Assembly (NCBI RefSeq): GCF_042453785.1
Contig: NC_091667.1
Span: 33,720,001 to 33,784,000, forward strand
Source: Malus domestica
Taxonomy: Eukaryota > Streptophyta > Magnoliopsida > Rosales > Rosaceae
Direction: 5' to 3'
DNA: 64,000 bases
Shown here piece by piece: positions 34,720 to 64,000 of the stretch. The position numbers and the translations under genes are program-made. Positions within the stretch are counted from its first letter, which is position 1. Every line of letters begins with the position of its first letter. The notes under the pieces are model-generated. The model made no database searches and was not told the DNA's origin. It saw nothing but the letters and a program-made list of their open reading frames with translations.

Positions 34720-34879
34720 AGGTGTTGAAGAGAGAAGAGGTCGGACAAATCAAGATCTTAGAAGTGCAAGAATGAAGCTTCTATTGGTGGAGATTCAAGT
34801 GTGCTTTGGAACTTAATGTCAGCCTCTATAAAAATCTGCACTCGATGGAGCTTCGGAAATCGAAGAGGCGCCTGCTCAG

Positions 34880-36860
34880 AAATCGAAGAGGCGTTTGCTT
34901 TCTCAAAAGCTGGGCTGCTTAGAGATCACGAGGGTTGATCTCAGAAATCGAAAAGGCGTTTGCTTTCTCAAAAGTTGGGCTGCTCAAAGACCACGAAGGC
35001 CGATCTCAGAAATCGAAGAGGCGCTCGCTTTCTCAAAAGCTGGGCTCCCCAGAGACCACGAGGGCCGATCTCAGAAATCGAAGAGGCACCTACTTTTCCA
35101 GCCTTGTCAGCACCCGTCACACGCACACTCAGCTTTGCAGAAATTATGGGCATTCTGTCGAAGACTTCTGGGGAAGTAGAAAACACATGAATCTTACTGT
35201 TCAATCACCCACTTCCCACACGCAACAATAGCTCATGGGTACCACAGATAACTTTGCCAAAGTTCTCTGCCAAAGTTGAGCACGTGAAGCTTGCAGCTCC
35301 CACTACATCGCTCTGACCAAGAAGGGTAAAAGAATAGCAAAGAAACAGCACTAACAAAGTTTAGACCCATAAATTTTGAAGGTCTAGCTACCATATTATT
35401 ACCCACAAGGGTAAAGGAACAGTACCACTGCTGGATAATTGGAAAGTCCCTGTGTGTCAACCTCTGTGCTTCGTGGCAAGGTAGACTAGCAAACATGCCC
35501 AACCTTTACTCACATTCGAGAAAACACTCCCAATAAGATTGCTTGCTCCAAAATCGAAGAGGCACCGTCCTCCGAATCTCGAGAGCCAGACTCCCAACAT
35601 GACTACTTTCTTAAAAATCGAAGAGAGGGTAAAGGAACAGTACCATTGCTGGATAATTGGAAAGTCCCTGTGTGTCAACCTCTGTGCTTCGTGGCAAGGT
35701 AGACTAGCAAACATGCCCAACCTTTACTCACATTCGAGAAAACACTCCCAACAAGATTGCTTGCTCCAAAATCGAAGAGGCACCGCCCTCTGAATCTCGA
35801 GAGCCAGACTCCCAACGTGATTACTTTCTCAAAAATCGAAGAGACACTGCTCCCCGAATCTTCGAGAGCCAGACCCCCAGCATGATTGCTTTCTCAAAAA
35901 TCGATAAGGCATCGTCCTCCGAATCAATCGAAGAGGCGCTCGCTTTCTCAAAAGCTGGGCTGCTCAGAGACCACGAGGGCCGATCTCAGAAATCGAAGAG
36001 GCACCTACTTTTCTAGCCTTGTCAGCACCTGTCACACGCACACTCAGCTTTGCAGAAATTATGGGCATTCTGTCGAAGACTTCTGGTGAAGTAGAAAGCA
36101 CATGAATCTTACTGTTCAATCACCCACTTCCCACACGCAACAATAGCTCATGGGTACCACATATAACTTTGCCAAAGTTCTCTGCCAAAGTTGAGCACGT
36201 GAAGCTTGCAGCTCCCACTACATCGCTCTGACCAAGAAAGGTAAAAGAATAGCAAAGAAACAGCACTAACAAAGTTTAGACACATAAATTTTGAAGGTCT
36301 AGCTACCATATTATTACCACAAGGGTAAAGGAACAGTACCACTGCTGGATAATTGGAAAGTCCCTGTGTGTCAACCTCTGTGCTTCGTGACAAGGTAGAC
36401 TAGCAAACATGCCCAACCTTTACTCACTTTCGAGAAAACACTCCCAACAAGATTGCTTGCTCCAAAATCGAAGAGGCACCGTCCTCCGAATCTCGAGAGC
36501 CAGACTCCCAACATGACTACTTTCTCAAAAGCGAAGAGAGGGTTAAGGAACAGTACCATTGCTGGATAATTGGAAAGTCTGTGTGTGTCAACCTTTGTGC
36601 TTCGTGGCAAGGTAGACTAGCAAACATGCCCAACCTTTACTCACATTCGAGACAACACTCCCAACAGGATTGCTTGCTCCAAAATCGAAGAGGCACCGCC
36701 CTCCGAATCTCGAGAGCCAGACTCCCAACATGATTACTTCCTCAAAAATCGAAGAGACACTGCTCTACGAATCTCGAGAGCCAGACCCCCAGCATGATTG
36801 CTTTCTCAAAAATCGAAGAGGCATCGTTCTCCGAATCTCGAGAGCCAGATACCACATACC
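34880..36860 (+). repeat. Nested direct repeats
   Basis: A long unit of about 916 bp is repeated (GCACCTACTTTTC at 35087 and again at 36003). Inside it a unit of about 215 bp, starting GGGTAAAGGAACAGTACCA, occurs at about 35411, 35628, 36326 and 36540. The short motif AAATCGAAGAGGC recurs many times throughout. This is a higher-order tandem structure, probably the U3-like part of the element. Confidence 0.85.
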
Positions 36861-60850: not shown

Positions 60851-61656
60851 CAAATTTATTCAATTCAATAACTAAAAAAAAAAAAATTGCATGAAATGAA
60901 TAAAAAGATGTTGAAATCACTTCCTTATTTGTAACAGTAACATGCAGCTGCAGATAGGAAAAAAAAATACTTCTCTACAAAACTTTGATTTATATACAAA
61001 TTCAAAGTTTTAAGCAAGGAGATTAGATGAATTTTACCCTAGAAATTAAACATTTGACATCCACCAATAAATCTCTTGAGATATTGCGTCACGCATAGGG
61101 CTTCAAAGGTGGGAAGGTATCGATCTAGAGAAACACGATTGTCAAATTCCCACAATGCATGATATCAATTTCTTTAGTAAAAACCTATACAGAACATTGA
61201 ACCCTAGAGTTTGACATGACATCACTTCCTGTTATTCATGTATTCTGGCTGTAAATACTGGGAAATTATATCTTAATCGTGTTGATTTAGGAACAAGGTT
61301 GACTGGCACGGAAAATAATTGGCATATATATTCTCAGGATAAAAATGTGTATCTATAACTATTTATATATAAAGTCGGAAGGCAAAAATGATGGATCATT
61401 CTCAATTCTAAAATATTATTCTCTAATTACGATTTTAAAATTGTTAATGTAGACATCGAAATTTCGGTAAATAAATGTTGACCGATAAATCAAAGTGTCA
61501 ACGCTCATGTATTACATAAATTTTACACGTAGCGTGTGACTCAACGAAAATTGAAATGAGTTGGAAAAGTCATCAAATAGGACACGTGTCAACACCTGGT
61601 AGAAACGACTTATTTCATCTGGGATATTATATTCAAAATTAGGCTTTGGAAAATTC

Positions 61657-61664
61657 TATAAATA
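61657..61664 (+). promoter_or_regulatory. LTR TATA box
   Basis: TATAAATA in the LTR about 140 bp upstream of the hairpin array, in the direction of the gag frame. Confidence 0.6.
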
Positions 61665-61802
61665 CAAGCCTATTTCATTCATTTAAGAGGGGAAAATCAT
61701 TAGGCAAAACTCTTGAAGCTCTGAAGCTCTGAAACTCCGAAGCTCTCAAGCATCCAGGTTCCCGAAGAATCAAGAAACTGTTCTTCGTTCTTCGTTCATC
61801 GT

Positions 61803-62345
61803 TCTTCCAAGATCAAGCCTCGACGGCCCTTGGATCAACAATCATCCACCAATTCAAGATCAAGCCCCGACGGCCCTTGAAGAAAGTGTTCTTCGTTCTT
61901 CGTTCATCGTTCTTCCAAGATCAAGCCCCGACGGCCCTTGGATCAACCATCCACCAATTCAAGATCAAGCCCCGACGGCCCTTGAAGAAAGCCCCATCGT
62001 TCATCATCCGTTCATCCAAGATCAAGCCCCAACGGCCCCTTTGGATTAACAACGTCGACAAATCCACACATCCAACCGTTCTTCAAGATCAAGCCCAAAA
62101 GCCCTTGAAGATCCGTCCATCACTGTTCTTCAAGATCAAGCCCAAACGCCCTTGAAGATCTGCTCATTACCGTTATTCAAGATCAAGCCTCAAACGGCCC
62201 TTGAAGAAACATTCATCCTCAAGATCAAGCCCCAACGGCTCCTTGAAGATCCGCTCAAATCCACCTCCAAAGATCAAGCCCACGACCCTTTGAAGAAACT
62301 TCCAACAGTTCATCCAAGATCAAGCCTTGACGGCCCTTGGATCAA
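61803..62345 (+). repeat. Eleven-unit minisatellite of covarying hairpins in the LTR
   Basis: Each unit has the core AAGATCAAGCCCCGACGGCC followed by CTTGA or CTTGG, with spacers of 15-40 bp. The bases before the core and after it are complementary in every unit, and they change together: CCAAG with CTTGG, TCAAG with CTTGA, CAAAG with CTTTG. Cores start near 61809, 61856, 61917, 61961, 62018, 62086, 62132, 62180, 62220, 62269 and 62318. Confidence 0.85.
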
Positions 62346-62565
62346 CGAAATATCCACCAATCAACACCTTACGGAGATCGAATCAGAGGATCAAAATAGA
62401 GAGAGATTGTAACCCAAAATCATCAAAAATACATAATATTTGTTTGTGCGCGTTTGTTCTTGTCTCTTTCGTTTCAGGAAATTTCCGTGTTCACAAATTG
62501 GCACGCCCGGTGGGATTATCTCTACCTCTCATCTCTTTCTCCGTTCCAAGCACACCTCAAAGTCA

Positions 62566-64000
62566 ATGGCATCAAGCAAGGGACAAGCCGTTCTTGCAAC
62601 CACTGAGGGAAGGATCCTAAGCACTTCTGCCGCAAACGGACAATCCATTGGCGCCACGACCGCTCCTCAACATGCCACTTCAAAATTGGTGCCGCTAAAA
62701 GAGCAAGGGGAGCATCCAAGGTGTGAGTCTGTCATCAACCTGACCTCGCTGGAGGCACCGAAGCATGATGCTGAGGCACATATGATGACATCCCAAAGCA
62801 GCCAACGACATTCTTCATCAGCATCCTGGATGTCTAAAGGAAAGTCACGTCTATTGGTCGCACAAGTCATGACTATCGGCGTTACCTCCGTTGAAGAACA
62901 ACTGGCTCAAATGAATGAAGCGATCGCAAGGCTAACCCGAACTGTGGAAGAAAAAGACTTGCAAATTGCAGCACTAGTCAACCGACTGGAGGCGCAGGAC
63001 GGCGATAAACCCGACCCAGAGAATGATCCACTAAAGAGAAAAGATGACGAAGAAGATGAGCCTCAGGTGGAGAAAAACGATGCAAAGCCGAATCCAGAGC
63101 AAGCAGCGGCACTCATGGGATCTCTTTCTATCCAGCAGCTGCAAGAGATGATCACCAACACCATCAAGGCACAGTACGAAGGGAGCTCAAATACCTCCGG
63201 GTTGTACTCAAAGCCGTATTCAAAGAAGATCGACGCCTTAAGGATGCCGAGGGGTTATCAACCACCAAAGTTCATGCAATTTGATGGAAAGGGAAACCCG
63301 AAACAGCACGTTGCCCACTTCGTTGAAACTTGCAACAACGCAGGAACCGAAGGGGATTACCTCGCGAAGCAGTTTGTGCGCTCGCTGAAAGGAAACGCCT
63401 TTGAGTGGTACACAGACCTAGAGCCTGAGTACATCAACAGCTGGGAGCAGTTAGAGCGGGAATTCCTCAACCGCTTCTATAGTACCCGCCGCATTGTGAG
63501 CATGCTAGAACTGACGAGCACGAAGCAATGGAAGGAAGAACCAGTCATGGACTACATCAACCGATGGCGTAATCTAAGCCTCGACTGTAAGGACAGACTC
63601 TCCGAGATTTCTTCAATCGAGATGTGCATCCAAGGCATGCAATGGGGTTTGCAATACATCCTTCAAGGCATTAAACCACGGACCTTCGAGGAATTGGCTA
63701 CTCGCGCCCATGACATGGAGTTGAGCATCGCCCATCATGGGAAGAAAGAACCGATCGCCGACTACAAGAACGACAAAGTTCTTGGGACAAAGGTGGAAAA
63801 GGCCGCATGGAAACCCACCAAGGAAGCGATGACGGTCAACACAGCTCCCGTCAAAATCTCCACACGAGGCAAGGCGATTCAAACCGAAGCTTTTCGTGAT
63901 CAAGAGATGCGTAGACGCACTTTGAAGGAGCTTGAGGAGAAGATTTATCCATTCCCCGACTCTGATGTAGTTGCCATGCTGGATGACCTGTTGGACAAGA
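62566..64000 (+). CDS. Gag frame of the Gypsy element (partial)
   Basis: Structural protein of the particle. Open from the ATG at 62566 to the window end (478 codons seen). A Ser/Thr-rich head is followed by a coiled-coil stretch (QLAQMNEAIARLTRTVEEKD), an acidic linker, and a Retrotrans_gag domain with KFMQFDGKGNPKQHVAHFVE, SLKGNAFEWYTDLEPEYI and LEREFLNRFYSTRRIVSM. No zinc knuckle has yet appeared by the window edge. Confidence 0.85.
   Translation, partial: MASSKGQAVLATTEGRILSTSAANGQSIGATTAPQHATSKLVPLKEQGEHPRCESVINLTSLEAPKHDAEAHMMTSQSSQRHSSSASWMSKGKSRLLVAQVMTIGVTSVEEQLAQMNEAIARLTRTVEEKDLQIAALVNRLEAQDGDKPDPENDPLKRKDDEEDEPQVEKNDAKPNPEQAAALMGSLSIQQLQEMITNTIKAQYEGSSNTSGLYSKPYSKKIDALRMPRGYQPPKFMQFDGKGNPKQHVAHFVETCNNAGTEGDYLAKQFVRSLKGNAFEWYTDLEPEYINSWEQLEREFLNRFYSTRRIVSMLELTSTKQWKEEPVMDYINRWRNLSLDCKDRLSEISSIEMCIQGMQWGLQYILQGIKPRTFEELATRAHDMELSIAHHGKKEPIADYKNDKVLGTKVEKAAWKPTKEAMTVNTAPVKISTRGKAIQTEAFRDQEMRRRTLKELEEKIYPFPDSDVVAMLDDLLDK

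Follow-up and report, generated by a model that had tools for sequence, protein, structure and literature searches.

Cis signals that mark the RNA of an LTR retrotransposon are, to our knowledge, little known in plants. The apple locus described here raises the question of whether a short palindromic unit, repeated eleven times within one LTR, acts as such a signal on the RNA, acts as a binding site on the DNA, or is a repeat multiplied without function. The window is the whole analyzed stretch of 64,000 nucleotides of Malus domestica (contig NC_091667.1, positions 33,720,001 to 33,784,000), and the genome searched for relatives comprised 651 Mb in 19 contigs.

The array and its eleven units

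An initial annotation had placed eleven tandem units at 61803..62345, and eleven exact GATCAAGCC cores do lie there; a search of both strands gave no further copy of this core elsewhere in the window. Each unit is an imperfect hairpin of 28-31 nt, consisting of an outer stem (TTCAAG/CTTGAA or TCCAAG/CTTGGA), an asymmetric internal loop (ATCAA) and an inner stem (GCC/GGC or GUC/GAC). The array and its units are as follows.

61803..62345, + strand: array of eleven hairpin units and spacers, inside the 5' LTR, downstream of the TATA box
61806..61834, + strand: unit 1, TCCAAG/CTTGGA; core at 61811
61853..61881, + strand: unit 2, TTCAAG/CTTGAA; core at 61858
61914..61942, + strand: unit 3, TCCAAG/CTTGGA; core at 61919
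61958..61986, + strand: unit 4, TTCAAG/CTTGAA; core at 61963
62015..62045, + strand: unit 5, TCCAAG/CTTTGGA, with an extra T; core at 62020
62082..62109, + strand: unit 6, TTCAAG/CTTGAA; core at 62087
62129..62156, + strand: unit 7, TTCAAG/CTTGAA; core at 62134
62176..62205, + strand: unit 8, TTCAAG/CTTGAA; core at 62181
62218..62247, + strand: unit 9, CTCAAG/CTTGAA, with C.A at the end pair; core at 62223
62267..62294, + strand: unit 10, CCAAAG/CTTTGAA, with a C.A mismatch; core at 62272
62313..62341, + strand: unit 11, TCCAAG/CTTGGA, the terminal unit, whose distance to the LTR end is nearly constant among LTRs; core at 62318

All three stem types named at the outset (CCAAG/CTTGG, TCAAG/CTTGA and CAAAG/CTTTG) are present. 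Full pairing of every stem, which had also been claimed, is found in most units but fails in unit 5, owing to the extra base, and in units 9 and 10, owing to their C.A mismatches; at unit 10, six of the eight LTRs compared have TTCAAAG.

The element and its RNA leader

The array belongs to a gag-bearing element of about 10.7 kb, the 3' LTR of which ends at C7:33792149. Its parts were located as follows.

61443..61447, no strand: 5' target-site copy GTTAA; both flanks were read, and the second copy follows the 3' LTR, outside the window
61448..62495, + strand: 5' LTR, 1048 bp, TGTAGACATC...GTGTTCACA (blastn)
61655..61665, + strand: TATA box TCTATAAATAC, present in all 45 collected LTRs when up to 2 mismatches are allowed
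61685..62565, + strand: putative RNA leader, without ATG; start taken as TATA + 30, gag ATG at 62566
62496..62515, + strand: primer-binding-site-like stretch, directly after the LTR
62566..64000, + strand: gag, Retrotrans_gag PF03732 (E 2.2e-13), continuing past the window end
C7:33791102-33792149, outside the window: 3' LTR (blastn)

The two LTRs differ by 2 mismatches in 1048 (blastn; 99.8% identical), and the element is a young plant retrotransposon. It has the TG...CA LTR ends and the 5-bp target-site duplication (GTTAA) by which Ty3/Gypsy elements are recognized, while its gag frame matches the Ty3_capsid model at E 6e-4, which is below that model's cut-off. Of ten ORFs listed for L079, five were scanned, all outside C7:33784001-33786599, and gave no integrase match; the TRP28 domain (PF04195) that marks the Retand antisense ORF gave none in three antisense L079 frames covering part of the region. 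A tRNA partner of the presumed primer site was sought through the complement of the site in the genome and none was identified; the complement occurs 599 times, and some of the listed places adjoin LTRs read here.

The proposal that the array follows the TATA box and lies in the RNA leader, though inferred from sequence, is well supported. The TATA box at 61655 is upstream, and between 61557 and the gag start codon at 62566 there is no ATG; the leader at 61685-62565 contains 19 occurrences of CAT against none of ATG. In the case of the 811-nt leader within the LTR, dinucleotide shuffles contain a mean of 7.7 ATG and none of 1000 is as low as the observed zero. For the array alone 4.8 are expected and none is seen (0.1% of shuffles as low), a part of the count that is not independent because the units share ancestry, whereas the 267 nt of non-array leader would be expected to contain 3.0 and likewise contain none (as in 2.2% of shuffles) and the U3 contains 3 against 5.2. 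Among 25 LTRs with at least six units, the density falls from 14.3 ATG/kb up to TATA + 30 to 1.0 thereafter, with CAT at 33.3 and 21.1 per kb, respectively; in 15 LTRs with fewer units, ATG/kb is 23.5 before this point and 6.2 after it. The simplest reading of this depletion is that ribosomes scan the stretch and that transcription would therefore start near the TATA box, so that the array would be transcribed. A depletion that begins at the TATA region might also help to place LTR transcription starts from sequence alone.

The same depletion would be expected if weak hairpins and ATG-free spacers tuned ribosome scanning, or the terminal hairpin might instead aid the choice of poly(A) site in the 3' LTR; in the window's LTR and in L013, a GATTGTAAC stretch close to the LTR end follows the near-fixed terminal unit. 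We regard a role in translation or 3'-end formation as improbable, since the non-array leader is equally free of ATG, which points to scanning rather than to hairpins, and since units are also present in the internal 3' region.

Two minor features of the LTR were noted. An 8-bp tandem repeat, TGAAGCTC, occupies 61714-61751, shortly after the putative transcription start. A reading of the GAA/TTC repeats as heat-shock elements was rejected: GAAnnTTC occurs 4 times against 1.0 expected (2% of 300 shuffles have as many) and TTCnnGAA twice against 1.0 expected, GAAnnTTCnnGAA is absent, and a single TTCnnGAAnnTTC is located at the LTR end.

Relatives, the terminal unit and the internal 3' region

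A loose unit pattern, AAGATCAAGCCN{2,12}GCCCTTG, has 10,367 matches in the genome, compared with none for the reversed control. Loci for closer reading comprised 29 from the first 100 listed pattern matches, all on C1, 30 from among the best matches of one query, 11 picked from a list and 8 from the initial cut; the resulting units are not a random draw from the genome, and genome-wide figures are counts of pattern matches only. Eight overlapping loci were excluded from the unit counts. Of 1099 units, 839 fell into clusters and were kept (668 distinct sequences), those outside clusters being dropped. Five LTRs were removed before the terminal-slot and flank-cluster counts: WIN3, L038 and L039 are second LTRs of kept elements, L040 is a near copy, and L073 duplicates another LTR of the set.

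The number of units per LTR ranges from 0 to 17, and their orientation relative to the element is constant in the loci read. Among 44 unit-bearing LTRs of 663-1637 bp, 41 have their last unit 169-178 bases before the LTR end (the exceptions being at 140, 196 and 222 bases), a count that includes one LTR twice, several LTR pairs of single elements and the five LTRs removed elsewhere. Units also occur outside the LTR. The window's element has six further unit-like cores at L001 481-1035, before its 3' LTR, and an arm reading CCCTTGA or CCCTTGG accompanies five of these. A tandem array occupies L001 636-1070, apparently between the coding region and the 3' LTR, and such arrays were also seen at other loci. 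Other families carry the array mainly in this internal 3' region and have 0-3 units in the LTR. More CAAGATCAA-type repeats, some without a second arm, were seen across L001 481-1145, and after them a polypurine-like GTGGGGGCATT is located at the 3' LTR.

Conservation of the units

The 668 distinct units were selected by their ATCAAG core plus a loosely defined inner stem, with the outer arms playing no part in the choice. The arms are conserved in these units and the far flanks are near random; at one stem pair, C occurs in 571 units and G in 552. Position-by-position comparison relied on 8 like-structured LTRs, as a MAFFT alignment of 25 LTRs with unequal arrays may align paralogous units. 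Columns with a variant common to at least two of the 8 LTRs number 11 of 320 in the units and 29 of 223 in the spacers (Fisher p 3.9e-5), and the arms alone, at 4 of 134, also differ from the spacers (p 0.001). Within the units, shared variants are found in 1 of 66 columns of the 5' arms, 3 of 68 of the 3' arms and 7 of 186 of the core. Elsewhere in the LTR they are found in 5 of 207 columns of the U3, 18 of 148 of the leader before the array and 14 of 150 of the tail; the U3 is thus as conserved as the units, and the contrast holds against the spacers and the rest of the leader. These counts are subject to two features of the set: L020 and L021 are identical in sequence, probably as the two LTRs of one element, and L046, L045 and L047 deviate in units 8-9 or 3, where the alignment may join different units. 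The units are thus conserved, as had been suggested, and the argument from conservation is stronger than first stated, while the argument from covariation is thinner.

The lower variability of the units bears on whether the array has any function. Recombination, or strand transfer during reverse transcription, would be able to multiply a chance palindrome and homogenize its copies, and several features agree with such a passive origin: the left end of the array has a 108-bp period in 2.7 copies, unit 3 of L045 and L047 appears to be a half-unit swap between types, the number of units varies widely among LTRs, and the 3' regions of Tat and Retand elements commonly contain tandem repeats, whose origin and function are called unknown in the accessible parts of the sources (PMC7004042, PMC11963269). 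Recombinational homogenization, however, would carry the spacers along with the units, and in aligned slots the units vary less; moreover, families whose LTRs have no more than two units still keep the terminal one at its near-fixed place, with a compensated inner pair. We therefore consider a functionless array rather unlikely.

Folding of the units

Folded singly, the units reach a mean z of -1.97 relative to 200 dinucleotide shuffles each, and fewer than a tenth of the shuffles are as stable for 10 of the 11 units, the exception being unit 10 (fraction 0.21). In these ten, an internal loop separates the outer stem from an inner stem of 2-4 pairs; unit 10 is looser. The hairpins are weak when folded alone (-3.8 to -10.0 kcal/mol), and more stable folds, at -10.1 to -16.7, are predicted for the antisense strand of the units. 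Folded as a whole, 61685-62498 has a z of -2.42 and none of 20 shuffles is as stable, although its minimum-energy structure does not keep some of the units as local hairpins. When pairing is limited to 60 bases, the predicted probability of the expected innermost outer-stem pair is at least 0.56 in nine units and low in the expected register for unit 2 (0.19) and unit 5 (0.08). None of 4227 Rfam families matches 61400-62700 at E<=1. The weakness of the hairpins, the more stable antisense strand and the low values of units 2 and 5 tell against the RNA reading preferred below, under which the units would fold in the cell.

Covariation and the choice between RNA and DNA

Paired change in the stems had been taken as the sign that structure is under selection. 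Two stem pairs do switch between C:G and U:A, but each switch amounts to about one event and broken pairs are inherited; in all, there are about two compensatory switches and a one-base lengthening of the stem. Within the window, paired change is confined to one C:G/U:A position, which separates the two unit types, and an added A:U pair in unit 10. Among units with otherwise intact arms, 64 of the 67 with the C:G outer type belong to one main flank cluster, for which reason this type is approximately a single event multiplied by duplication; the original caution that copying of unit types explains part of the pattern was thus well placed. The second switch is in the terminal slot, where array families have C:G as the middle inner pair and two-unit families have U:A. 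Of 41 LTRs, 21 have C:G, 13 have U:A and none has a broken form, the remaining 7 being C:G by eye where the scripted reading was one base off.

Mutual information over 1485 column pairs gives the stem pairs ranks of 11, 15, 32, 78, 142, 568, 577, 702 and 1303, so that ten non-stem pairs precede the best stem pair and six of the nine stem pairs rank 78 or lower. Rank 11 is the outer pair 13/38, and rank 15 is the inner pair 23/32, in which most rows have G facing either C or a gap. In sets of 36, 45 and 43 lineage representatives, chosen at three thresholds after clusters of fewer than 2 or 3 members had been dropped, double-change cells number 14, 17 and 16, against means of 5.3, 5.8 and 4.6 in shuffles that leave relatedness in place; none of 500 shuffles reaches the observed value, slid controls give 1-9 such cells, and 8-11 of the 14-17 stem from two pairs. 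The percentage paired is 78.1, 82.8 and 87.6, compared with shuffle means of 75.0, 79.5 and 83.9, with a shuffle tie at the first threshold. Unpaired variants (TCCTAAG/CTTTGGA, TCCTTAG/CTTTGGA and ATCCAAA/CTTGGAT) occur in several copies, and inspection by eye of the units aligned across 8 LTRs gave no compensated pair.

The intermediates of a C:G/U:A switch bear on the strand and molecule at which selection would act. As the arms are palindromic, both intermediates have the same sequence context, and an excess of U.G over C.A would point to folding of the sense RNA. At one outer pair with the remaining arms exact, the genome contains 8572 U:A, 2056 C:G (668 expected under independence), 1259 U.G and 426 C.A. 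Unpaired changes as frequent as paired ones had been named as evidence against kept structure; they are seen among single changes at the lineage level (19-21 U.G against 21-31 C.A cells, all nine stem pairs taken together) but not in these raw counts. Sampled units with otherwise intact arms have 32 U.G against 9 C.A, in 9 and 6 flank clusters, while the five outermost pairs of all 668 units have 158 U.G against 169 C.A. At the innermost outer pair, where sequence contexts differ, G.U is found 104 times and A.C 38 times. A raw excess of U.G can come from few copied slots.

Since sequence is conserved as well as pairing, the unit may be a DNA-binding site: a palindrome recognized by a host protein and repeated to raise transcription or set a chromatin state. 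The near-equality of U.G and C.A at the lineage level agrees with this, as do the repeated palindromic motifs that hint at regulation in Sirevirus LTRs, according to the accessible text of PMC2829016. The boxes described there, however, are upstream of the TATA box, and the apple units are downstream of it and in the internal 3' region; a single orientation relative to the element, a conserved asymmetric core between the arms and a raw genome-wide U.G count three times that of C.A at one pair likewise argue against a site on DNA. Such a site appears to us unlikely, though worth keeping in view.

Proposed role

Our preferred reading, held tentatively and at somewhat less than an even chance, is that a conserved hairpin has been multiplied into arrays as a repeated binding site on the RNA of the element. 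The short imperfect hairpin would be a conserved cis-acting element of related Gypsy-type retrotransposons, with selection acting on the RNA. One copy lies at a near-constant distance from the LTR end in almost all sampled LTRs, and tandem duplication would have expanded it into the array of the LTR leader and built the second array in the internal 3' region. Its most likely role would be that of a multivalent site at which the genomic RNA is bound by one protein, in the simplest case the element's own Gag, for packaging; alternatively, a host RNA-binding protein might act through it on export, stability or translation. The more specific proposal is that this 28-31 nt hairpin, common to divergent plant Gypsy-type families, is a new structured RNA element serving as a multivalent signal for packaging or RNP assembly, with up to 17 copies per LTR, further internal 3' copies and a copy number evolving by tandem duplication; we consider this possible but doubtful.

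If the preferred reading is true, this hairpin would lend itself readily to tests: it is conserved and repeated, it exists in thousands of natural variants, its terminal copy is near-fixed and the units of its array can be counted. Transcript level, packaging and copy success could then be compared among elements that differ in unit number or in stem variants. The case would also show that the tandem repeats of such elements need not be mere by-products.

Comparison with known systems

The closest known systems are the tandem repeats of Tat/Retand 3' regions and the palindromic motifs of Sireviruses. Tandem repeats are reported in the 3' regions of Retand and Ogre elements, with their function called unknown in the portions of the papers available (PMC11963269, PMC7004042). 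Tat/Ogre and Retand elements, as far as these portions describe them, resemble the apple element in being Gypsy-type and in having tandem arrays of variable unit number between coding region and 3' LTR. In contrast, the unit here is a hairpin conserved among LTR families that have diverged, and its main array follows the TATA box within the LTR; in the available text, Retand repeats are described as family-specific (PMC11963269), and the word "hairpin" does not occur in that of PMC7004042 or PMC11963269.

Palindromic repeated motifs in the LTRs of Sireviruses, which are Copia elements, share with the apple units a high copy number, dyad symmetry, occurrence in divergent elements and presence outside the LTR, according to the excerpt at hand (PMC2829016). 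The same excerpt gives nearly all of these boxes, besides their position relative to the TATA box, a CGG-CCG core, whereas in the apple units, which follow the TATA box, CAAG/CTTG arms enclose a core of about 17 nt; these units are not boxes of the Sirevirus type. In retroviruses, residual conservation in long R regions has been linked to stem-loops in the part of PMC3601003 available, and conservation within a long R region is the likeness here, where the R borders are putative; the difference is that the LTR here belongs to a plant Gypsy-type element and that a single unit is repeated in tandem as many as 17 times. The apple repeat HODOR has been described (PMC6901071, PMC13334179), with a length of 9,716 bp (PMC13334179), in the accessible parts of these papers. 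No paper on the present hairpin was found in a search whose coverage mostly excludes subscription journals.

Other features of the element and the window

Between the LTRs of the window's element, an open frame on the + strand encodes a Dof zinc finger (PF02701, E 9.3e-34; L079:753-1601, C7:33787352-33788200). Matches to its first ~498 bases lie at C5:43023038 (96%) and C10:39752405 (93%), both possibly host Dof genes, and its bases 1-846 have a 97% copy at C2:7594355, between hairpin-unit matches at C2:7590392 and 7600905. Judged by these matches, the frame looks like a fragment of a host transcription factor captured by the element and present in two copies. Elsewhere in the window, 34875-36849 contains two tandem duplications of ~217 bp and 65-bp repeats, which are unrelated to the hairpin array.
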